Source of the DNA: a virus
DNA length: 23,895 nt
Virus record (IMG/VR): IMGVR_UViG_3300037502_000941
Coordinates: 1 to 23,895 of that record
Direction: 5' to 3' (one strand)
Shown: in pieces, positions 48-22,017 of the stretch
How positions within the stretch are numbered: position 1 is the first letter of the stretch
Layout: each line of letters starts with the position of its first letter
Notes under the pieces: generated by a model
What the model was told of the DNA's origin: nothing
Seen by the model: only the letters and a program-made list of their open reading frames with translations
Databases searched by the model: none
Translations under genes and position numbers: made by a program

Positions 48-1321
48 AAGTATCGCTTTAGAATTGCGTTTACAAAGTAACGAAAACAATCCAAGAAGTC
101 AGCACGCTCGGCAATGTTTTTTCGATTGGTCTTTATGATGGACCCATTGGCATCACATTGCACTTGCTTCGCATCGAATACAAATCCCTTGCACCGCTTA
201 GAGTTCACGCGGATGTCAAGCTTGCGCAATGCTGCGTTGCAATCGATGCGGCTGTTGTAGTGCGTTGGGTTGGCCGGAATGAGAAACTGGCTATCGCTCA
301 TGCCGAGCCGCCGCTTAATCATCGTGTACGCGCTGGAGTTATCGCGCTGTTGAACCGTGCCACCCTTACCCATCGCATCGCCTGTAATACGTATCAGCCC
401 CATCGGCACTCCGAGCGCAAGCACAGCATCGCAGAACGCATCCACGCTGCCCTTGTCAATCTTAATCTCATCCACCACTACCGCGCCTCTGCCAACGTGC
501 TGAATAACCAAAGCGCAAAGTGGGTTAATGTTGAAGTCAACGCTGATGTGCACTGGCATGTTGCGGTTCAGCTGCACGCTGTCATCGATGTGCTTATCAT
601 CGCTCCATTCGTACAGGAACGGGTTCGCCACATCGTCCATCACATCCCAATCGCCCTCCACGAATCGAGCGTACTGCACAGGGGGTAACTCCTTCAAGCT
701 CTCGAGGTATTCAGCCGGGATGTGTGGGTTGTCGGTAATCTTGCTCGGGATGAATGTCCACCGCTCGGGCAATCTGCCTTCTCGGTATGGGTTGTAGATT
801 ATATCCTTTACCCAGTTGTTAGCTGGATTGCACGTTGCAAGGCACACGATCGGCGGCTGGCCTATTGCCTTGTTCCAACTCCCGATGCGTTCCTGTACTT
901 TGTAGAACGTGACATCTTGCAGCTCATTCACCTCATCTAATCCAGCGCCGTTAACCTCAAGACCTTTGAAGCGGTTGAGGTCTTTATCATCATCAAAGCT
1001 TTCAGCCATAAAGATAAGCTCACTGCCATTGATGAAGGTTACTACCTGCGTGTCGCGGTTCCAGTTCTCGACATATCGGTCGATTCCATCATTCAGGATT
1101 GAACTAAACGATGGAAAGGTTGTGCGCTTCAGGTCGGGCAGGCTGCGGCGAATAATAACCCATCGGCTTCGCGGGTATTGCAGCGCAAGGTAAACAAGTG
1201 TAATCAACAACCAAGTGGTTTTTCCACCGCGTATACTCCCCCCAAACACTATCACACGGTACTGCCCAGACTCAACAGCCTCGAGTGCTATGGACTGCCT
1301 TTCAAATAATTCGTATTCCAT
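44..1321 (-). CDS. terL: Terminase large subunit (packaging ATPase and nuclease)
   Basis: This is the motor that pumps phage DNA into the prohead and cuts the concatemer. Numbering from the upstream TTG at 1324: a Walker A motif GGSIRGGKTT lies at about residues 28-37, and a Walker B acidic pair (GLDEVNE) has D130 and E131. A motif III-like coupling segment (LATCNPA) is near 162-168. The C-terminal RNase H-like nuclease shows acidic residues in SVDFN (D263), ITGDAMG (D316) and ERADFLD (D409, D412). The total of about 425 residues is normal for the family. I chose the ATG at 1321 because it overlaps the TGA of the preceding small gene (TGATG); the in-frame TTG one codon upstream is the alternative. 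The small terminase gene lies just upstream, as expected. Confidence 0.95.
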   Translation of the reverse strand: MEYELFERQSIALEAVESGQYRVIVFGGSIRGGKTTWLLITLVYLALQYPRSRWVIIRRSLPDLKRTTFPSFSSILNDGIDRYVENWNRDTQVVTFINGSELIFMAESFDDDKDLNRFKGLEVNGAGLDEVNELQDVTFYKVQERIGSWNKAIGQPPIVCLATCNPANNWVKDIIYNPYREGRLPERWTFIPSKITDNPHIPAEYLESLKELPPVQYARFVEGDWDVMDDVANPFLYEWSDDKHIDDSVQLNRNMPVHISVDFNINPLCALVIQHVGRGAVVVDEIKIDKGSVDAFCDAVLALGVPMGLIRITGDAMGKGGTVQQRDNSSAYTMIKRRLGMSDSQFLIPANPTHYNSRIDCNAALRKLDIRVNSKRCKGFVFDAKQVQCDANGSIIKTNRKNIAERADFLDCFRYFVNAILKRYL

Positions 1322-1446
1322 CAATCCTCCTCGTCATTCGGGTCGGGCATGCAGTCAATGATGTTGCGAATAACAAGCACAAAGCCATACGCAAACGCAA
1401 CTATGAACAGCGTGAGCAACAATCCGGTGCCGATGGCTTTAAGCAT
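1321..1446 (-). CDS. 41-residue single-pass membrane protein between the terminase genes
   Basis: A short reading frame starts MLKAIGTGLLLTLF and ends in an acidic tail, PDPNDEED. Residues 4-27 are strongly hydrophobic and form one predicted transmembrane helix. The ATG lies 8 bases inside the end of the small terminase gene, preceded by GAGGACGGCA, a passable ribosome binding site. The TGA overlaps the ATG of the large terminase. This double coupling and the clean layout of helix plus charged tail make it probably a real gene. I do not recognise a family. Its role is unknown; a membrane anchor or a small holin or antiholin-like protein would be guesses. Confidence 0.6.
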   Translation of the reverse strand: MLKAIGTGLLLTLFIVAFAYGFVLVIRNIIDCMPDPNDEED

Positions 1447-1741
1447 TGCCGTCCTCTTTGGTCTTAATGATTACCAACGGCTCGGTAGTCTTGAGCGTGG
1501 TCTCGCTGGTCTGCTTCGGCTTGCCATAAGCGCGGTCGAGCAGCAACTCGGCGGCGCGGGTATCGCCTTTCTTAGCCCTTGCATGTAGCGCGTTTAGTAT
1601 CTCTTCTGCGGCTGTTTGTCCATCTTTACCTTCCTTGCCGAGCACGTTCGCAAGTAGCGTGTGAAGCTCTGGCAGCTTTGGCCTGCCAACATTCTTGGTA
1701 TTGCCTGACTTCAACTTGCCGCCGTTTCTGCCTTCTCTCAT
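1439..1741 (-). CDS. terS: Probable terminase small subunit (DNA recognition)
   Basis: The protein is about 100 residues from the ATG at 1741. Its basic N-terminus (GKLKSGNTKNVGRPK) resembles the NTGRPKG-type start of phage small-terminase and DUF5681 proteins. A helical segment follows (EILNALHARAKKGDTRAAEL, then LLDRAYGKPKQ) that is characteristic of those proteins. Small subunits bind the packaging start site and load the large subunit, whose gene lies downstream with only a 41-codon gene between. The frame stays open upstream to 1807, but that part overlaps the 46-residue gene. The ATG at 1741 follows an A-rich leader with a tandem AAACTCGTAA element, which is usual for strong Bacteroidota starts. 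The AGGAGG at 1764-1769 is too far away to act as its binding site. Confidence 0.7.
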   Translation of the reverse strand: MREGRNGGKLKSGNTKNVGRPKLPELHTLLANVLGKEGKDGQTAAEEILNALHARAKKGDTRAAELLLDRAYGKPKQTSETTLKTTEPLVIIKTKEDGNA

Positions 1742-1760
1742 TTTACGAGTTTTTACGAGT

Positions 1761-1901
1761 TTACCTCCTACGTGCTTTGCGGTACTTCTCAGCCTCTGCA
1801 TAAGCAATCGCTGCCGCTTGGCTGGGTGAATATCCCTCGCTTATTAGCTTGCGGATGTTCATCTGAATTATCTCTTGGCTGTCGCCTTGGAATAGTGGCA
1901 T
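1761..1901 (-). CDS. 46-residue conserved-type small phage protein
   Basis: This short frame begins MPLFQGDSQEIIQMNIRKL and continues with SEGYSPSQAAAIAYAEAEKY. It matches a pattern I know from many phages: a short protein of the form 'MPL..G.S...I..NI..L...G....QA.AIA...A', usually unannotated in function and often close to structural or packaging genes. It is a helical, charged protein without membrane segments. It stops with TAA inside AGGAGGTAA, 19 bases before the terminase small subunit start, and begins 3 bases after the stop of the 127-residue gene upstream. The reading frame is convincing; the role is unknown. Confidence 0.65.
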   Translation of the reverse strand: MPLFQGDSQEIIQMNIRKLISEGYSPSQAAAIAYAEAEKYRKARRR

Positions 1902-1904
1902 AAT

Positions 1905-2288
1905 TTACAAATTTACTAAATTTTCAAATAGCTTGCCTTCGTAGGTAATGTTCATAGAAAAGCCCCGCTCAACTATCTCTTCATATTGCGATTGGTAGAT
2001 GAATAAATCATGCAGCTTGCCTTCGATGAAAGCCTTTGCTGTAAATCCTTGCACCCCGCTTTTATCCGATGTAGGCAATAACATTCCGAGTCTATACTGA
2101 ACATCGCGCTCTTTGCTCAAAACAATCTTATTGATCTTGCTGAACTTGCGCACATCGTCAATAGTGATTCCAACAGCAATGTCGTATTCAAGTGCCGGAT
2201 GGGTTAAATATCCAAAGTAGCAATGGTCTCGCATGTACTCAGCATCGACAAACATGCCAGCCCTGAGTCTTGTGGTTTGGTTAGTCAT
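1905..2288 (-). CDS. Hypothetical protein, 127 residues
   Basis: I do not recognise this protein. It is soluble-looking and mixed alpha/beta, beginning MTNQTTRLRAGMFVDAEYM, with no signal peptide or membrane helix. It overlaps the 3' end of the preceding gene by 8 bases and is followed after 3 bases by the 46-residue gene, so it belongs to the tightly packed operon running from replication into packaging. Nothing in it suggests a catalytic site. Confidence 0.75.
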   Translation of the reverse strand: MTNQTTRLRAGMFVDAEYMRDHCYFGYLTHPALEYDIAVGITIDDVRKFSKINKIVLSKERDVQYRLGMLLPTSDKSGVQGFTAKAFIEGKLHDLFIYQSQYEEIVERGFSMNITYEGKLFENLVNL

Positions 2289-2493
2289 CTTTTCGGCTGT
2301 GATATCGTTCGCAATCTAAGTCAATCCAATCGAGCTCAGGCTCTTCATCGTCATCAACAACTGCATCGTAGTTCGTTGGTGCTCTTGCCATGTCTCTGAG
2401 ATAGGCGAAGTAATTCGGATGTCCTAGGTTTTCTGTTTCAATTCCGAAATGCTTTAAGCACATCTCTCGTTTGTACTCTTGGTATTCTGTCAT
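2281..2493 (-). CDS. Hypothetical acidic protein, 70 residues
   Basis: No family is recognised. The C-terminal half is strongly acidic (DAVVDDDEEPELDWIDLDCE), which would suit a protein-binding or DNA-mimic-like surface, though that is only a suggestion. The frame is open to 2511, but I chose the ATG at 2493 because it is preceded by the leader TACACACACTATG, identical to the one at the primase start (5682). The stop overlaps the next gene by 8 bases. Confidence 0.7.
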   Translation of the reverse strand: MTEYQEYKREMCLKHFGIETENLGHPNYFAYLRDMARAPTNYDAVVDDDEEPELDWIDLDCERYHSRKDD

Positions 2494-2504
2494 AGTGTGT
2501 GTAT

Positions 2505-2693
2505 TTAGCAACCGTGTTCCGGTTCATGTTTCTTTGGTTTAATTGTCAATGTTGAAAGGTAATTGCGAACCATCATGCGTACTGTCTCTTTTGCTGATAG
2601 TGGAACGCGGAAGGATATGGTAGACATTTTCTCGCCGTAAATCGGCTTTCGCCCGGCACCTGATCGCCTACCTCCTCGTTTTTCTGTGTTCAT
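2505..2693 (-). CDS. Small GRK-motif DNA-binding protein, ribbon-helix-helix-like
   Basis: The 62-residue protein opens with a basic AT-hook-like segment (RGGRRSGAGRKPIYGEK). A short beta-strand and helix follow, MSTISFRVPLSAKE, the pattern of phage ribbon-helix-helix regulators in which the strand SFRVP would enter the major groove. It probably binds DNA as a dimer and regulates transcription. It is a distant relative of the 53-residue protein at 22412-22573, which has the same AGRK-x(n)-(I/V)SFR-x-PLS arrangement. A Bacteroidota-type promoter lies directly upstream at 2699-2730, so this gene may begin its own transcript with a very short or absent leader. Confidence 0.7.
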   Translation of the reverse strand: MNTEKRGGRRSGAGRKPIYGEKMSTISFRVPLSAKETVRMMVRNYLSTLTIKPKKHEPEHGC

Positions 2694-2698
2694 GTGTG

Positions 2699-2730
2699 CA
2701 AAGGTATTTATTTGTTTGTGTTTTGCAAAT
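2699..2730 (-). promoter_or_regulatory. Bacteroidota-type promoter before the small regulator gene
   Basis: On the minus strand TTTG (2727-2730) is followed after 20 bases by TACCTTTG (2699-2706), close to the TTTG-N19-TAnnTTTG consensus. It lies inside the last codons and stop region of the upstream gene. The expected transcription start falls almost on the ATG at 2693, so the message may be leaderless. Seen by eye only; spacing is one base longer than ideal. Confidence 0.5.
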
Positions 2731-2944
2731 TAATATTATTCTTGTGCAGAAGCCTCAGCCAGTTCAATGCCTTAATCGTGTAGGTTCGATGAACTAATGT
2801 TCCATGCGCAGCTGTTGTGAGATATCTCGCAAGCGATTTATGAGCCTGTTGTGTTGAGGTATAAGTTAGCGGCTCATCCACAATCATTGCCTCATCTGGA
2901 AGCATCTCGGTCATGTAGTGAATAATCTTGTCGTACTTAGTCAT
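2708..2944 (-). CDS. Hypothetical protein, 78 residues, possible winged-helix-like fold
   Basis: I do not recognise a named family. The sequence begins MTKYDKIIHYMTEMLPDEAM. The segment QAHKSLARYLTTAAHGTL followed by VHRTYTIKALNWLRLLH has the look of a small helix-turn-helix protein with helices around an Ala/Gly turn, but the match is weak. It overlaps the preceding nuclease gene by 8 bases and is followed by the ribbon-helix-helix gene, whose promoter lies in its 3' end. Confidence 0.7.
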   Translation of the reverse strand: MTKYDKIIHYMTEMLPDEAMIVDEPLTYTSTQQAHKSLARYLTTAAHGTLVHRTYTIKALNWLRLLHKNNINLQNTNK

Positions 2945-3263
2945 GGTTTATGATGTTTAAGAATTCCTCTTCATTGCGCACTATGTGGTATTCATGGCCG
3001 AGTGATCGGCAAATCTTTTCAAATCTCTTCTGCTCTTCCGACTGCTTTCCGGTTTCGGTCTTCCATTCAATCCAGCATGTCCGACCTTCCGGCTTCAAGT
3101 AGCACATATCGGCAACGCCTGGCACAACTCCCATCGCTTTGTTCATTGCACCCTTAATGCCGTTCACGCTGTTGTTATTGATGGCAAAAACTCTTCCACG
3201 CAAGTCTGGGCGGGCGTTCCATAGGTTTGTGAAGGCTTTGGATTGGGCTTTTACTTCGCTCAT
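2937..3263 (-). CDS. VRR-NUC family nuclease
   Basis: VRR-NUC proteins are small PD-(D/E)XK nucleases of phages that act on branched or flapped DNA during replication and recombination. The family signature is present: VVPGVADMCYL (first acidic residue) followed by CWIEWKTETGKQSEEQKRF (the E-x-K core and the conserved QxxF-type helix), then LGHEYHIVRNEEEF, the last strand and helix. At 108 residues it is a complete stand-alone domain. The ATG at 3263 is preferred; a GTG at 3275 in frame lies inside the GTTGCCAC hairpin that immediately precedes the gene, so that hairpin may control expression. It sits just after the primase-helicase gene and repeat array. Confidence 0.88.
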   Translation of the reverse strand: MSEVKAQSKAFTNLWNARPDLRGRVFAINNNSVNGIKGAMNKAMGVVPGVADMCYLKPEGRTCWIEWKTETGKQSEEQKRFEKICRSLGHEYHIVRNEEEFLNIINHD

Positions 3264-3267
3264 AATT

Positions 3268-3555
3268 GTTGCCACTTAGTAAGGTGGCAACAATGTTTTT
3301 GACTGCCAAAAACGCTTGTATCGCAATCGCTGCAATGGTTACAGCGATTTGTTGCCACTTGGGCCAAAAAAAGCCCTGTTAGTATAATATGTGTGTGTGT
3401 GTGCATGTGTGTGTGTGTGTGTATATAAATATTGTTAAGGTATGAAAAGTAAGTGGCAACAGTGGCAACAAATGGCTGTAAGGCTTGGTATAATTGGGCT
3501 TGGAGTGTTGCCACTTGCTTTTTTGAAGTGGCAACAAAGTGGCAACACTGGCAAC
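3268..3555 (-). repeat. Array of GTTGCCAC / GTGGCAAC repeats, candidate origin or operator region
   Basis: This gene-free gap of about 290 bases holds eight perfect copies of the octamer. GTTGCCAC on the plus strand is at 3268, 3351 and 3507. GTGGCAAC is at 3284, 3453, 3462, 3528 and 3539. A near copy (CTGGCAAC) is at 3548. Two pairs form perfect inverted repeats, 3268-3291 and 3505-3537. A second dyad, AATCGCTG/CAGCGATT, is at 3327-3352, and a (TG)n tract lies in the middle. The location between primase-helicase and nuclease, with repeated binding-site-like words in both orientations, fits an iteron-type replication origin or an operator cluster. A 100-codon frame crosses it on the minus strand, but it encodes mostly the repeats and is rejected as a gene. 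Confidence 0.75.
3391..3422. repeat. TG/AC dinucleotide tract
   Basis: The tract is an almost uninterrupted TG run of about 32 bases on the plus strand, broken once by CA, followed by an AT-rich stretch (ATATAAATATTG). Alternating purine-pyrimidine tracts can adopt Z-DNA and often vary in length between isolates. Together with the AT-rich flank it may act as an easily unwound element within the repeat region. Confidence 0.85.
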
Positions 3556-3558
3556 ATA

Positions 3559-5682
3559 TCACATCGGATTTTTGTTGATAAGGTACATTCTAACAATCGA
3601 ATTTCCACGGCGTTTGCGGTCTTGCGTATAGCCTAATGCAGTGAGTATCGAACCAATACGCTGCGTGTTGAGGTAATTGAACTTGGTCTCAATCATAAGG
3701 TATTGCTGAATCTCGGTAAGCGACATCCACTCTCCATAACTTTCAGAGTTCGCTGGACTCAGCTTCTTGTGGATTAGGTCTTCTTCAGGTGTTGAATGCT
3801 TGAACGCATCAGTTGATTGGTTTAGCTCTTCGATGTCTTGGCGCAATACTGTGTAATCCCAGCCGTTGCGATACATGGCATACAGCTCACGCCATAGTGC
3901 AACCTTATCGCACTTGTTATAATATTCCTGATTGATATCCACGATGTGAATTGGAATCTGCCTACGGTTTCCGGTAGGGTCATTAAGTATCTGCGTTTCG
4001 TTCGATGTACCGCAGAACACGGCCAGCCTACGAAGGTCGAGCGACACGCGGCCATAAGGTTCGCGCACGTTTATGAACTCTTTCGATGTTAGCTCTTTGA
4101 GTCGCTTCTCTTCCTTTTTGGACTTACCGCCGTATTCGTCATCGAGGATGATCAGCTTCTTGCACATGAGGATTTCGTCATCCTTTCCGGCATCCATCTT
4201 CGACTCAGCGAATAGGTACCTGAGCTGCTTGGGTAGCAAGTAACGAAACCAGTGTGTCTTTCCGGTGCCTTGCTTCTCGCCTGAGAATATGAGCACCAAT
4301 GGCGAGTGATTGCCATAGGCAGATGCGACCACTGATACGAGCCACTTGAGGACGAACTTATCAGCGTTTGGCGTGTCGGTTATTATGCTGTTGAGCAGGT
4401 GCGTCACGTTGTGGCAATCTTCCTCGGTGTGTAGTTCCTCTTCAAAGAACTCGTGCAGCGGGTTATATGTCTCGATGCGATTTGAGAAAATAATGGAAGT
4501 TACCAGGTCTTTTGTGGCCTCTTTGAACACGGCCTTGCAATCAAGAAAAATCGAATTTATATCACTGTCATCGATAGGCCTTCCATTTAGTTCCACGTTG
4601 CGCGTAACTACGTTTTTTCTGAGGTCAAAAGTTTTTATAAACGCCGCAATATCAGCACTTACATTCTCCGATTTGAATTTAATATCCTTTGCTACTATTT
4701 CATTGACAACTTTCTCACTTTCCTCCGGGCTGATGCCAGCTACCTCCAGCGACTTGACGATGGCTTCAGGCGAAAGCCCAGCGGCACGTTGCGAGCTTGC
4801 GGCTCGGAGAATCTCCTTGGTCTGCTCGGAGTAGGCTTGTATGCCGTTTTGCTTGGCCTGGTAGTAGATGGTTGCAATTGTTGACCGCTTGCCCTTGCTC
4901 TCGCTGTGGTTCTTCAGGCAGGCTGTGTACTGCGCATTGCAGTCATCGGAATTGTACTTGGAAGAGTGCGATGACAGCGTGTGAAAGTAGTCGCGACCAC
5001 CTTCTCCAAATTCGGACACCAGTGCGTATGCGATTTGAATCCACTCGGAGTAATCTTCGCAGAGGTTAAGCCCCTTGCGATCCATCTCTGCAATCATGGC
5101 ATCGAAGTCGGTTTTCACTACCGCGACTTTTGCGAGCTTGCGTTCCTTCGGTTTTGCGAGGTACTTCTTGAACATGACGGCCTTGGTGTTGATGTGAATC
5201 CAAGGGTCGTAAGATATGAAGCGAGCGCGTGATACGTTTTTGCCGGACTGGTCAACAATTAGCTGATAGGTGTGGTATAGGTACGATGCTATGCCATTAA
5301 ACGCATCTGCGTGGCGTGTGCCATCGATTTTTACTATAAGGCATAGTCCACGCCCACTGATGGAAGTAAACGCAGCATAAACGTAAGAATCCGATTGAAT
5401 TAGCTTCTTAACATCTTCAGGGCTTTCGATGTTGTCGATGTCGATTGCGATGAATCCTGAGTGCGCTCGGATAGCATCGTCCTTTCGGGCTGAGAATGAG
5501 CCGCTGATGGTGACTAATGGAGCTGATTTTTTCTTTTTATCGCGCTCGGTCTTGTCGGCTGTTGCGCGAACTTGGAGGACTATGTCCTGCCATTTGCCAG
5601 TTCTGACTCCTTCCAGAAAGGAGCTGAGTTCGATGTCAGTGTCTTGTGTGTCATAGATGTTTTGGTAATGTGAGATGAGCAT
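3559..5682 (-). CDS. Primase-helicase: BT4734-like primase domain, PriCT, VirE/D5-like ATPase
   Basis: The 707-residue replication protein has three parts. Residues about 15-175 form a BT4734-type primase-like domain, with the acidic motif FIAIDIDN (D81, D83) and TSISGRGLCLIVK (107-118). Residues about 195-280 resemble a PriCT linker domain (CEDYSEWIQIAYAL). Residues about 435-640 form a VirE/VapE or D5-like superfamily 3-type ATPase. It has Walker A GEKQGTGKTHW (468-478), Walker B LIILDDEYG (510-518), sensor GTSNE (558-562) and an arginine-finger candidate GNRRQIP (571-577). It would prime and unwind the phage origin, plausibly at the repeat array directly downstream. The ATG at 5682 follows the TACACACACT leader and lies 103 bases inside the end of the helicase gene, an unusually long overlap. 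Confidence 0.9.
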   Translation of the reverse strand: MLISHYQNIYDTQDTDIELSSFLEGVRTGKWQDIVLQVRATADKTERDKKKKSAPLVTISGSFSARKDDAIRAHSGFIAIDIDNIESPEDVKKLIQSDSYVYAAFTSISGRGLCLIVKIDGTRHADAFNGIASYLYHTYQLIVDQSGKNVSRARFISYDPWIHINTKAVMFKKYLAKPKERKLAKVAVVKTDFDAMIAEMDRKGLNLCEDYSEWIQIAYALVSEFGEGGRDYFHTLSSHSSKYNSDDCNAQYTACLKNHSESKGKRSTIATIYYQAKQNGIQAYSEQTKEILRAASSQRAAGLSPEAIVKSLEVAGISPEESEKVVNEIVAKDIKFKSENVSADIAAFIKTFDLRKNVVTRNVELNGRPIDDSDINSIFLDCKAVFKEATKDLVTSIIFSNRIETYNPLHEFFEEELHTEEDCHNVTHLLNSIITDTPNADKFVLKWLVSVVASAYGNHSPLVLIFSGEKQGTGKTHWFRYLLPKQLRYLFAESKMDAGKDDEILMCKKLIILDDEYGGKSKKEEKRLKELTSKEFINVREPYGRVSLDLRRLAVFCGTSNETQILNDPTGNRRQIPIHIVDINQEYYNKCDKVALWRELYAMYRNGWDYTVLRQDIEELNQSTDAFKHSTPEEDLIHKKLSPANSESYGEWMSLTEIQQYLMIETKFNYLNTQRIGSILTALGYTQDRKRRGNSIVRMYLINKNPM

Positions 5683-10905: not shown

Positions 10906-10935
10906 CAAATGTAAAACCTTATTTTGATTTCACAA
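10906..10935 (-). promoter_or_regulatory. Bacteroidota-type promoter for the early/replication operon
   Basis: Minus strand: TTG (10933-10935), 19 bases, then TACATTTG (10906-10913), an exact fit to the TTG-N19-TAnnTTTG form. The gap between the lysis region and the early genes (10884-11001) is AT-rich and otherwise empty, apart from a weak GCGA/TCGC hairpin near 10968-10979 that could end upstream transcription. Confidence 0.75.
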
Positions 10936-11001: not shown

Positions 11002-11646
11002 TTATTTTGCGCGACCAATTGCGACACCAACAAGCCCCCCAAGCGCGAAAGCGAATGCGCGTGTCTCGTACCACTTCTTAGGCGGTTCGGCCACGATTAT
11101 GTTATTCATGCCGGTAACGGTTACATAAGGGTTATCAATGCCAAGCCGAACCACCTTATCACGCTTACGCGATAAGAAGCCCTTACGCAGCGTATCTCCA
11201 ATTGCAACGGTATAAGATACCGGAATGATAATTGAGTCCAACTGAAGCCGTCCCAAGCGGTTAATCGAGCCACCTATCTCGAGCCACTTACCCGGCCTGT
11301 GGAAGTAACGCGGCAGGCGAAGGTGCGGGAAGCTATCAATGTACACGGTCTCGCCAAGCTCAATCTCTGTCTTGACAACTGTCCGCGTTTGGTACCTTAC
11401 CACCACCTCAGGCTCTCGCAATTCCAAGGCTCGCAGCTTGGTGCCTGCCGCTGCGAGCTGCACTCCTTGGCTGTGCATCTTGCTGCTGTCTCTCGCGATT
11501 CGCACAGCGTACTCATTGTTGAGCGAATCGAGGTACATGGCATTGCTTTCGGCCTCGCTTAATGCCGCGCAAGTTCGCAGCAATAGCAGCAATAAGAATA
11601 GGCATATTGCCAAAAGGCTTAACGTGCTGATGTTGTTTTGCTGCAT
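11002..11646 (-). CDS. Membrane-anchored coiled-coil protein, spanin-like position
   Basis: The 214-residue protein has one N-terminal transmembrane helix (about residues 8-26). A helical stretch rich in Ala, Ser and Glu follows to about 75, then a conserved-looking middle (RTVVKTEIELGETVYIDSFP, YFHRPGKWLEIGGSINRLGR) and a hydrophobic C-terminal segment (AFALGGLVGVAIG). It resembles the DUF6549-type proteins encoded near lysis genes of Bacteroidota phages. The topology, one anchor and a periplasmic coiled coil, is that of an inner-membrane spanin, which joins inner and outer membranes at lysis, but the beta-like middle is larger than in classical Rz. It is the last gene of the lysis unit. Confidence 0.72.
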   Translation of the reverse strand: MQQNNISTLSLLAICLFLLLLLLRTCAALSEAESNAMYLDSLNNEYAVRIARDSSKMHSQGVQLAAAGTKLRALELREPEVVVRYQTRTVVKTEIELGETVYIDSFPHLRLPRYFHRPGKWLEIGGSINRLGRLQLDSIIIPVSYTVAIGDTLRKGFLSRKRDKVVRLGIDNPYVTVTGMNNIIVAEPPKKWYETRAFAFALGGLVGVAIGRAK

Positions 11647-11813
11647 AGTATAAGTTCGTTTAATCGTTTGAGGTAGGTGCTCTTATCGCGCAGCTCGTTT
11701 AGCAATATATCGCCCGCCACCTTTATCGGCATCGACTTCTCGGCTATGTAAACTGCCAGCACCTTCACAAGTCGCTCATCGCATTCACAATCGGTCGCCG
11801 GTAGGTTTCTCAT
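11619..11813 (-). CDS. Hypothetical protein, 64 residues, between phosphoacceptor and spanin-like genes
   Basis: No family is recognised. It begins MRNLPATDCECDERLVKVLA and is mostly helical with a basic C-terminus. The ATG overlaps the stop of the PAS/phosphoacceptor gene (ATGA), and its last 28 bases overlap the spanin-like gene, so it is probably translated in coupling with both. It has no ATP-binding motifs, so it does not supply the ATPase domain missing from the upstream kinase-like protein. It could be a partner of that protein, though this is only inferred from adjacency. Confidence 0.65.
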   Translation of the reverse strand: MRNLPATDCECDERLVKVLAVYIAEKSMPIKVAGDILLNELRDKSTYLKRLNELILCSKTTSAR

Positions 11814-12376
11814 AGTTGCCTTGTTGCTTTTTTGACTAAGAGCCGAATCACATTGTCGAGCTTATCCACGCTGTCCTCGAGCATCTTCATCACCCCATCG
11901 CGCTCTTGGTCCGTTGCCCAGCTGTGATCGTTGAGCATCTTTACCAAGCCACCGATGGATGTCAATGGCTGCCTTAATTCGTGCGATAGGGTGAAACGAA
12001 ACTCTTCCAGAAGCATCTTTTGCCGTTCGTATTCATGGCTGCTTATGGAAGTAACATCGACAAGCTGAATGCCGATGAAGTGAAACATATCAACAATGGC
12101 GTAAACATTCCACATATTGTACCGCTCGGATGCAATCTTCTGCTTGGTCTTTGCGTATGCCCTAATCGGGTCGGGTGATTTGCTTTGCGCCTTGCGAATT
12201 GCCGAAAGCAGCTCATCGCGGTCGCTGTCTTGCGCTGCGATGTCGAGGATATTGACTGGCTTAATGTGGCTCGAATACTCTTTGAATAGCTCATTGCTTG
12301 TGACTATTCGCCCATCCCTGTCGGTAATCACATAGAAGAGGTCAATTGATGACTCAAGGATGTGCAGCGATGCCAT
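11810..12376 (-). CDS. Orphan PAS plus HisKA phosphoacceptor protein without kinase ATPase domain
   Basis: The 188-residue protein resembles the middle of a bacterial sensor histidine kinase. Residues about 8-110 form a PAS-like sensor (DLFYVITDRDGRIVTSNELF at the start, IGIQLVDVT as the last strand). Residues about 118-185 form a dimerisation and phosphoacceptor hairpin with the H-box TLSHELRQPLTSIGGLV, the phosphorylatable residue being His132. The protein ends right after the second helix, so the N, G1, F and G2 boxes of the ATPase domain are absent, and the next gene does not supply them. There is no membrane segment, so it should be cytoplasmic. It may dimerise with, be phosphorylated by, or draw phosphate from host kinases, as single phosphotransfer domains do. 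It sits in the lysis cassette between membrane proteins. An extended TATCTTTG is at 12381-12388 without a clear -33 box. Confidence 0.85.
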   Translation of the reverse strand: MASLHILESSIDLFYVITDRDGRIVTSNELFKEYSSHIKPVNILDIAAQDSDRDELLSAIRKAQSKSPDPIRAYAKTKQKIASERYNMWNVYAIVDMFHFIGIQLVDVTSISSHEYERQKMLLEEFRFTLSHELRQPLTSIGGLVKMLNDHSWATDQERDGVMKMLEDSVDKLDNVIRLLVKKATRQL

Positions 12377-12390
12377 GCTGCAAAGATACG

Positions 12391-12783
12391 TTAAACCGAA
12401 CGTAAATCGCTAAAGAAAGCACGCCATGCAGGCACGCATCCGAGCGCATATTTGATGGTAAGCAGCATCGTGAAGGTAAGCACGATGCCATTTGCGAGTA
12501 TATCGTAATTCATAGGCGTTTGCATTTCCGGCTCATTTCTTACAGCGTGAGTTTTCGGTATGTAATACGTGGCGGCTGGGTACAAAGATACATCACACGG
12601 CTGAATTGTATCAAACGCGGTTAATACTTTCGGCTTTGCCGGTTGCGCCATGACTGCCTGAAAGCTTTCGCGGTTGGCTTGCTGAAATGAGGTATCGGCT
12701 TCGGGCGCATGCCAGCTCATGGTATCGATGTTGAGCTTGCTGTGGCGCACTACCTTTATCGTGTCTCTTCTAATCTGTTGCAT
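12391..12783 (-). CDS. Membrane protein of the lysis region, 130 residues
   Basis: The N-terminal 90 residues are soluble and polar with several Pro and Ala; a single transmembrane helix follows near the C-terminus (DILANGIVLTFTMLLTIKYA), and a short tail ends FFSDLRSV. I recognise no family. Its start overlaps the holin-like gene by 14 bases, so it probably belongs to the same lysis unit. A tail-anchored protein in this place could be a holin partner or a spanin-related protein; the sequence does not decide it. Confidence 0.7.
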   Translation of the reverse strand: MQQIRRDTIKVVRHSKLNIDTMSWHAPEADTSFQQANRESFQAVMAQPAKPKVLTAFDTIQPCDVSLYPAATYYIPKTHAVRNEPEMQTPMNYDILANGIVLTFTMLLTIKYALGCVPAWRAFFSDLRSV

Positions 12784-12973
12784 CGCTTTTGGCTTTTGGG
12801 ATATATCCTGCGGCTATTAGTGCTGCAATGATGGCGGTTAATGTCTCGGCTGTTATCACTTTGAAGATTAGTAAGAAGATTGATACCAAAATCATGAGCG
12901 AACCGATTGTGCTTCGCCAGTGCTTAACAATCACATCGAGTATGCGCCTTGGTTTGGTAGGTCTTCGTGCCAT
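12770..12973 (-). CDS. Holin-like small membrane protein
   Basis: The 67-residue protein begins with a very basic N-terminus (MARRPTKPRRILDVIVKHWR). It then has two hydrophobic helices (SLMILVSIFLLIFKVI, and LTAIIAALIAAGYIP) and ends in a short charged tail. This is the size and layout of class II-type holins, which open the inner membrane so that the endolysin can reach the wall. The GH24 endolysin gene lies 46 bases upstream, which supports the call. Holins share little sequence, so the assignment rests on topology and context. The gap to the endolysin gene holds a CCTTGC/GCAAGG hairpin without a T-run. Confidence 0.75.
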   Translation of the reverse strand: MARRPTKPRRILDVIVKHWRSTIGSLMILVSIFLLIFKVITAETLTAIIAALIAAGYIPKAKSDATD

Positions 12974-19570: not shown

Positions 19571-19605
19571 CAAAGATAAAAAAAAGAGGGCACGAAGCCC
19601 CCTTC
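19571..19605 (-). terminator. Rho-independent terminator after the capsid gene, running into a promoter-like TATCTTTG
   Basis: On the minus strand a 7-bp stem (AGGGGGC / GCCCTCT, with one G-T pair) encloses the loop TTCGT and is followed by eight T (19578-19585). The stem starts one base after the TAA of the predicted -1 extension of the capsid gene. The T-run is followed at once by TATCTTTG (19571-19578), a fit to the Bacteroidota -7 box, but I see no TTTG at the right distance, so the promoter part is weak. Confidence 0.82.
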
Positions 19606-20973: not shown

Positions 20974-22017
20974 TTAAGAACCACATTCCGAAAACACCTC
21001 ACAGCTTTCACCGCCAAGTAAGTCAAGTTGGTATGTATATTCATCTGCATCGTTTTTTATAGTTCCGTTCCAGCTTTTAGCTTCTTCAAGTATTTGCAAT
21101 GTGCTTCTGTTTTTTCTAAAAAATGTTCTGTCTTTGGGTATAAATTCCTTTCTTTCGCACGTTTCAACATAACCTATCAATTCTTCATCTTCTTCTCCCT
21201 CATAAATATAAATTGGCTTACCTATTTCCATTGGCTCGTTTTTTTCAATAGTGCCGTTTATTAAATAAAAATCAGGGTATTCTTTTCCAAACTCGTTCCC
21301 CACTCTCGGATATTTTCGTTCCATTTCAGCCATAAATTCAAATGCTTTTGGGTTTTCTTGTGCAATTTGATACAGCTTCTTATCTGCCTTTTTCCAACAA
21401 GTCGCACAATTACCTTGATACCCTTTTAATTCTAATCTAAAAGGCATTGAACGCCAATAAAAGTTTATCATTGGCTTTGTTGCAGGTATCATTTTGCTGC
21501 TTATTAACGGATATATAAAGCCCATTTCTTTAGCTTTTGCGTTCATTCTATCTGCCTCGTCTTGCCTTATACCTATCGCTGTATGATACTTTTCACCATT
21601 AAACCAATCTTTGCCAAATGCCTTTATTGGCGCTTGCTTTAATTCCCTCGTGCAGTGTGGAAATGCCTGATTTGGTATTCCGTATTTTTTAATTATTGCT
21701 TCAAAAGGTTCACCTTTTCTGCTTGCATTATCAAAATCGGTTCTATAAAATCCAGTTCCTTTTCTTATGCCTTGTTGCACATCGGCTTCAACCCATTGCA
21801 CATTTAATTTAAAGTGTTTATCGCATCGCTCCACAAATTCAAGTGTTTGCTCATTCTCTAATCCTGTATTTGCAAACACAAACACAATATTTTCATAGCC
21901 ATATTCTTCATAATGGTTGTTTAACCATTGTGCCATAAAAGCGGAAGTTTCACCGCCTGAAAATGAAACGAGAAGATTTTTTGCCCCCGCTTCGCTATTT
22001 TTTATTTTTTCTTTCAT
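20974..22017 (-). CDS. PAPS-reductase-family PP-loop protein
   Basis: The 347-residue protein carries the PP-loop ATP-pyrophosphatase motif VSFSGGETSAFMAQWL (about 17-32). Further family landmarks are IVFVFANTGLENEQTLEFVE, the cysteine motif FPHCTRELKQAPI and AIGIRQDEADRM, with a second cysteine pair NCATCWKKADKK. This is the phosphoadenosine phosphosulphate reductase superfamily, whose phage members are common but mostly of unknown substrate; some related enzymes modify DNA with sulphur (DndC). A free sulphate-assimilation role is unlikely for a phage gene beside capsid genes. It is clearly AT-richer than its neighbours and lies between attC-like repeats, which points to acquisition. Start ATG 22017 follows an A-rich leader. 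Confidence 0.88.
   Translation of the reverse strand: MKEKIKNSEAGAKNLLVSFSGGETSAFMAQWLNNHYEEYGYENIVFVFANTGLENEQTLEFVERCDKHFKLNVQWVEADVQQGIRKGTGFYRTDFDNASRKGEPFEAIIKKYGIPNQAFPHCTRELKQAPIKAFGKDWFNGEKYHTAIGIRQDEADRMNAKAKEMGFIYPLISSKMIPATKPMINFYWRSMPFRLELKGYQGNCATCWKKADKKLYQIAQENPKAFEFMAEMERKYPRVGNEFGKEYPDFYLINGTIEKNEPMEIGKPIYIYEGEEDEELIGYVETCERKEFIPKDRTFFRKNRSTLQILEEAKSWNGTIKNDADEYTYQLDLLGGESCEVFSECGS

Follow-up and report, generated by a model that had tools for sequence, protein, structure and literature searches.

What does a phage do with a protein that resembles the sensor and phosphoacceptor parts of a histidine kinase, has no ATPase domain, and is encoded beside its lysis genes? The question is raised by a gene in the virus record IMGVR_UViG_3300037502_000941, of which we analyzed positions 1 to 23,895 (below, the window; 23,895 nucleotides in all). 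On the minus strand, the gene runs from an ATG start at 12376 to the stop codon TGA at 11812-11810 and encodes 188 amino acids. An earlier note had placed it correctly at 11810-12376 and had described a protein with a PAS-like half and, behind it, a HisKA hairpin carrying His132, but with no ATPase domain. This description was confirmed by profile search, by PDB search and by a structural model. That is, the reading frame stops right behind the HisKA hairpin, and the ATPase domain is absent. We refer to the product as the PAS-HisKA protein.

The PAS and HisKA parts of the protein

The HisKA part was recognized by its profile. The Pfam family PF00512 (HisKA) matched residues 129-178 of the window protein with an E value of 3.7e-8 and 33.7 bits, against a curated cutoff of 26.9, and it matched every member (41 of 41) of a diverse alignment. 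In NCBIfam, residues 16-181 aligned with PhoR-type kinases. The signaling helix and the HisKA (DHp) helical hairpin together occupy residues 113-186 (11819..12040, minus strand); in the monomer AlphaFold2 model, the helices lie at residues 113-138, 141-150 and 156-186, and the pLDDT of the hairpin is moderate (46-69).

The profile search proposed in the earlier note thus gave the expected match for HisKA but not for PAS, which Pfam did not call in the window protein. In the diverse alignment, 4 of the 41 members matched PAS_9 weakly, the best E value being 0.019. The assignment of the PAS domain comes from structure and from an end-to-end match to a PAS kinase. The AlphaFold2 model, built with the 41 diverse homologues, has the PAS topology with a pLDDT of about 78-94 over residues 11-100, and residues ~11-109 (12050..12346, minus strand) match known PAS domains with Z values of 13-14 and an rmsd of about 2 Å over ~95 residues. 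The model therefore contains the five-stranded PAS fold with a helical connector. The top matches in Foldseek were PAS/LOV-histidine kinases, covering both the PAS domain and the hairpin, and in the PDB search residues 6-181 aligned end-to-end with the PAS-HisKA kinase ThkA (3a0r, E 6e-7). At the end of the PAS domain stands D107-V108-T109, at the place where the sensor of PAS kinases is coupled to the signaling helix (a DIT-type motif); the first two of these residues do not vary in the 41-sequence alignment. Since the window protein contains no Cys, it cannot form a LOV-type flavin adduct.

The H-box (S-H-E-L-R-Q-P-L-T, residues 131-139) lies at 11960..11986 on the minus strand, and the codon of His132 at 11983-11981. 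Its conservation was judged from 22 homologues found via the terminase, which form an unbiased sample because they were not picked by the H-box. All 22 have Ser-His-Glu and a Pro at H+5, and H+4 was Gln in 20, Ser in one and His in one, but never Thr or Asn. The longer pattern FRFxLSHELRQP was not accepted as wholly invariant, because many loci had been retrieved by that very pattern, which makes the argument partly circular, and because H+4 varies among Q, S and H. Kinases of the FixL/DctB type naturally have H-E-x-N-Q-P, that is, Gln at H+4, and therefore Gln at this position is no proof of a lost phosphatase activity. Studies of the HisKA kinase CrdS indicated that its kinase activity depends crucially on the Glu after the His, whereas its phosphatase activity does not, and that the latter requires the Asn at H+4, the N375Q protein having no measurable phosphatase activity (PMC3510030). 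Because the His-Glu pair is invariant here and H+4 is never Thr or Asn, phosphate acceptance fits the protein better than phosphatase action.

Conservation of the gene, its neighbors and its promoter

Scans of IMG/VR gave 136 distinct full-length relatives of 185-189 amino acids, down to ~50% identity to the window protein, and all of them share one end point just past the hairpin. The dN/dS values between the window gene and 12 members were 0.04-0.10, which means strong purifying selection, and in most comparisons the value was lower in the HisKA half. A search with a distant member's large terminase, and not with this gene, retrieved 21 contigs of at least 30 kb, and the gene was present in all of them. 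Four shorter terminase-bearing contigs have no PAS-HisKA gene, but these are not counterexamples, because the lysozyme gene and g215 are absent from them too, so that the region is probably not covered. One locus (L253) carries a broken copy of the gene.

The protein looks like a cytoplasmic PAS kinase of which only the N-terminal part is present, and in principle it could be a nonfunctional remnant of a histidine kinase, degraded or truncated, or a sequencing artefact. The 136 homologues with the same end, the low dN/dS values and the presence of the gene in every long contig leave this explanation practically no credence. The earlier note had pointed out that a full-length kinase in related phages would reduce the window gene to a truncation. 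No full-length version was found in them, and the truncation reading fails.

The earlier statement that the flanking genes supply no ATPase was borne out, and it extends beyond the flanks. No HATPase_c domain was detected in the window or in 53 related records, searched in six frames and read through stops, while the same search matched 14 of 14 control genomes. HATPase_c_2 was absent from 16 related records and response regulators from 16 phage records, in both cases with positive controls. One of the searched records, G008, is 35,348 bases long and probably complete, as it carries a direct terminal repeat of 127 bases. We therefore rejected the idea that the kinase domain is encoded elsewhere in the phage. 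Because the phages show no HATPase_c, HATPase_c_2 or response regulator, the partner or phosphate source must be that of the host. With an H-box maintained by selection and no kinase in the related genomes, it is reasonable to think that the PAS-HisKA protein carries phosphate without a kinase of its own.

As for the distribution, scanning 84,980 genomes of bacteria and archaea gave no close relative, and the exact H-box pattern FRFxLSHELRQP had no match in the same genomes; both scans respond to near-exact stretches, so that divergent relatives could escape. Within this range, a cellular or prophage origin was rejected. Among cultivated phages there was no full-length relative. The HisKA part alone was weakly matched by records that carry no annotation and go under the names of Listeria, Enterococcus and Staphylococcus phages; these possibly represent host DNA. 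The best-covered terminase match in a cultivated phage was that of Flavobacterium phage 11b, with 30% identity. Shine-Dalgarno motifs were near the shuffled level, which fits a Bacteroidota host. PADLOC gave no match. The PAS-HisKA gene is thus a fixed gene, beside the lysis genes, of a large group of uncultured phages that probably infect Bacteroidota.

The neighborhood was compared in 73 contigs that had both flanks and distinct gene sequences. The survey of related phages suggested in the earlier note found the gene in the same place in all 73. All the genes described here are on the minus strand. Upstream lie the endolysin, a phage lysozyme (13020..13478; Pfam PF00959, E 2e-38), and a holin-like protein of 67 amino acids (12770..12973; PHROG 565 holin, a weak match with E 0.004), each with an upstream homologue in 73/73 contigs, and then g130 (12391..12783), which by hydropathy has one C-terminal TM helix and was found by BLAST in 60/73. 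Downstream, g64 (11619..11813), a conserved 64-amino-acid protein, adjoins the PAS-HisKA gene in 72/73 contigs, followed by the membrane protein g214 (11002..11646) in 73/73. By hydropathy and alignment, the latter has an N-terminal TM helix, an invariant Cys26 and a C-terminal hydrophobic Gly-rich stretch. Thus, in the lysis cassette that the earlier note described, the lysozyme is secure, the holin is a weak assignment, and g214 may be called spanin-like by its anatomy only, that is, by hydropathy and the conserved Cys.

At the junction of the PAS-HisKA gene with g64, stop and start overlap by 4 nt (ATGA), and g64 is likely to be translationally coupled to the PAS-HisKA gene. The g64 product could be a partner of the PAS-HisKA protein. 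This product is soluble, keeps the motif (D)xRLxxVxxxYxxExxMP across clades and matches no family.

A Bacteroidota-type -7 box, TATCTTTG, lies at 12381..12388 on the minus strand, 12 nt upstream of the PAS-HisKA ATG. The consensus is TAnnTTTG, as given for Bacteroidota in PMC10309648. Of 167 distinct loci, 119 have such a box at exactly this distance from the ATG, against a background in which 3.8% of random 60-nt windows hold one anywhere. The divergent members L250, L270 and L238 are without it. From the position of the box, transcription may start at the ATG or a few bases from it, and the PAS-HisKA mRNA may be leaderless. A second -7 box is found at 10913, before the next gene group, so that in most members the PAS-HisKA gene, g64 and g214 look like a short unit of their own between the lysis and the replication genes. 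Since most members have their own -7 box, adjacency to the lysis genes need not mean co-expression. This layout speaks for an expression that is separate at least in part, so that the gene would not simply be a passenger of the lysis genes. The earlier note had proposed a role in lysis timing from the position between holin and spanin. The position itself proved invariant, but the proposal is weakened by the promoter box that most members have in front of the gene itself, and we regard such a role as possible.

Besides these two boxes (at 12381-12388 and 10906-10913), minus-strand -7 boxes occur in the window at 2699-2706 and 19571-19578, all a short distance upstream of one of several gene groups. 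A near-leaderless layout, with the box 12-13 nt before the ATG, is seen also at a 62-amino-acid gene (2505-2693) in the window and in the genomes G001, G002 and G008.

Possible modes of action and known systems

The missing kinase domain suggests that the PAS-HisKA protein plugs into the host's own signaling. The explanation that we consider best, with a probability of about one half, is a PAS-gated, dimeric phosphoacceptor without kinase that would engage two-component proteins of the host. The PAS domain would sense a cytoplasmic cue, which would pass via the DVT motif and the signaling helix to the dimeric HisKA (DHp) hairpin. His132 would then be phosphorylated in trans by the ATPase domain of a host kinase or, alternatively, by phosphate passing back to it from a phosphorylated response regulator of the host. 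By acting as a sink, a relay or a dominant-negative partner, the protein would shift the phosphorylation of the host response regulator during infection, possibly timed around envelope stress or lysis. Of this scheme, the domains, the conservation of His132 and Glu133, the lack of a kinase domain in the phages, the fixed position and the promoter box of most members are observed, and the dimerization, the phosphorylation, the host partner, the timing and the benefit are inferred. A wider reading, which we offer tentatively, is that in a whole clade of Bacteroidota-type phages a core PAS-gated DHp protein reads host phosphorylation to time lysis or to switch off a host stress response, the phage encoding the phosphoacceptor only and borrowing the kinase.

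Three other explanations were weighed against the phosphoacceptor. The PAS sensor and the dimerization hairpin might act on a phage partner (g64, g214 or the holin) to time lysis without any phosphorylation. The invariable position near the lysozyme and holin-like genes (73/73 contigs), and the ATGA coupling to a small, co-conserved g64, speak for such a partner, but pure dimerization needs no invariant His-Glu pair and the separate promoter box of most members loosens the tie to the lysis genes, which leaves this explanation doubtful. We think it unlikely that the protein is a stand-alone DHp phosphatase that drains a host response regulator in the manner of the isolated DHp of EnvZ. Such an activity would not need the ATPase, and the Gln at H+4 of FixL-type kinases leaves some doubt over an argument from H+4. 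Nevertheless neither T nor N was found at H+4, where the residues are Q, S and H, and a change to Gln is what made CrdS phosphatase-dead (N375Q, PMC3510030). That a DHp without catalytic domain can be a phosphatase is attributed to Zhu et al. 2000, as cited in PMC3510030.

The remaining explanation is a dominant-negative heterodimer, in which the phage DHp would pair with the DHp of a host kinase and silence it, His132 serving merely a native-like fold. DHp domains do dimerize, and PIT4 is a known lytic-phage protein that binds HK domains (PMC10714779). However, the phage DHp was not found to mimic closely that of any one host kinase, FRFxLSHELRQP occurring in 0 of the 84,980 genomes, and the invariance of the His would then be without explanation. 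We consider this heterodimer improbable.

The kinase-less phosphoacceptor can be compared with several known systems. Like ThkA (3a0r) and the LOV-kinase 4gcz, the phage protein has a PAS domain, a DVT/DIT-like junction, a signaling helix and a HisKA H-box. Unlike these PAS kinases, it is without the catalytic ATP-binding domain, has Gln at H+4, and was found here in viral contigs only. Spo0B, ChpT and PhyT are kinase-derived phosphotransferases with a degenerate catalytic domain (PMC5898713). What they share with the phage protein, for which phosphotransfer is putative, is a DHp-type phosphoacceptor that is not itself active as a kinase (PMC5898713). In contrast to these proteins with their catalytic remnants, the phage protein ends after the hairpin and has a PAS sensor. 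No full-length homologue has a degenerate CA-like domain behind the DHp, and since there is no degenerate catalytic domain at all, we did not file the PAS-HisKA protein with Spo0B, ChpT and PhyT. Spo0B, named in the earlier note as a precedent, thus fits imperfectly: it is a DHp phosphoacceptor without kinase activity, but it keeps the degenerate catalytic domain that is absent here.

Among viral proteins, Rap proteins are TPR proteins that are regulated by peptides and are not known to have a phosphoacceptor His domain; unlike Rap of phi3T, the PAS-HisKA protein carries HisKA. The Rap-Phr modules (phi3T) are mentioned in PMC13389391 as phage-encoded control of a host phosphorelay. Full-length histidine kinases are known from uncultured phages and giant viruses (for example BFVD A0A6J5L941), and the PAS/HisKA architecture is common to them and to the present family; those kinases are mostly far longer and annotated as kinases, whereas the family here has a fixed 188-amino-acid form without the kinase domain. 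In Pseudomonas phage LSL4, PIT4 is expressed early and is reported to bind host HK domains; the 2023 paper stated that, until PIT4, direct interaction with a two-component protein had not been described for any phage protein (PMC10714779). PIT4 is a lytic-phage protein aimed at host two-component kinases, as the PAS-HisKA protein may be too. Compared by description only, PIT4 is not described as a DHp protein, whereas the PAS-HisKA protein is itself one. A search of the open-access literature, with most subscription journals outside it, gave nothing direct on phage DHp-only proteins or on a part of phage-encoded histidine kinases in lysis. Should phosphate indeed reach the protein from kinases or regulators of the host, this would amount to a minimal viral tap on bacterial signaling, in which the phage brings the sensor and the phosphoacceptor and the host the ATPase, and the family would add a structurally explicit and widely conserved case beside PIT4. 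The single residue His132 makes the phosphoacceptor idea directly testable.

Other features of the window and of related contigs

In eight contigs, the large-terminase reading frame is interrupted within Walker A (GGAI-R-GGKT) by an insert, 39 or 41 nt long, that holds a hairpin. The 41-nt form is found at L416:3091-3134 and also in L418, L422, L425, L442, L443 and L448, and the 39-nt form at L362:8405-8446, in the genome G002, a relative of the window that carries the PAS-HisKA gene. The insert is flanked by Arg codons, CGA before it and CGT after it (CGA in L418). The 41-nt insert shifts the frame and has an in-frame stop in most copies; in the 39-nt insert, UAA directly follows CGA. Both forms hold a GNRA-loop hairpin with compensatory changes. 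The hairpin has 9 pairs, which are 100% paired in 7 sequences with 3 pairs changed on both sides, and its fold z values are -2.2 to -4.7. When reading resumes on the second Arg codon, an intact terminase results, and sister contigs are without the insert. There was no Rfam match. The insert looks like a translational-bypass element, similar to that of T4 gene 60, or a tiny intron.

The window also encodes, at 20974-22017 on the minus strand, a 347-amino-acid protein with a PAPS-reductase domain (E 3.7e-7), in a stretch with a G+C content of 0.35-0.36 versus 0.43-0.54 in most of the window. In the record IMGVR_UViG_3300008259_000070 (40,001 bases; loci L360/L361), diverged copies of one and the same gene block stand at the two ends, near 780-4398 and 35916-39744, and look like either an assembly join of two related phages or a real duplication.
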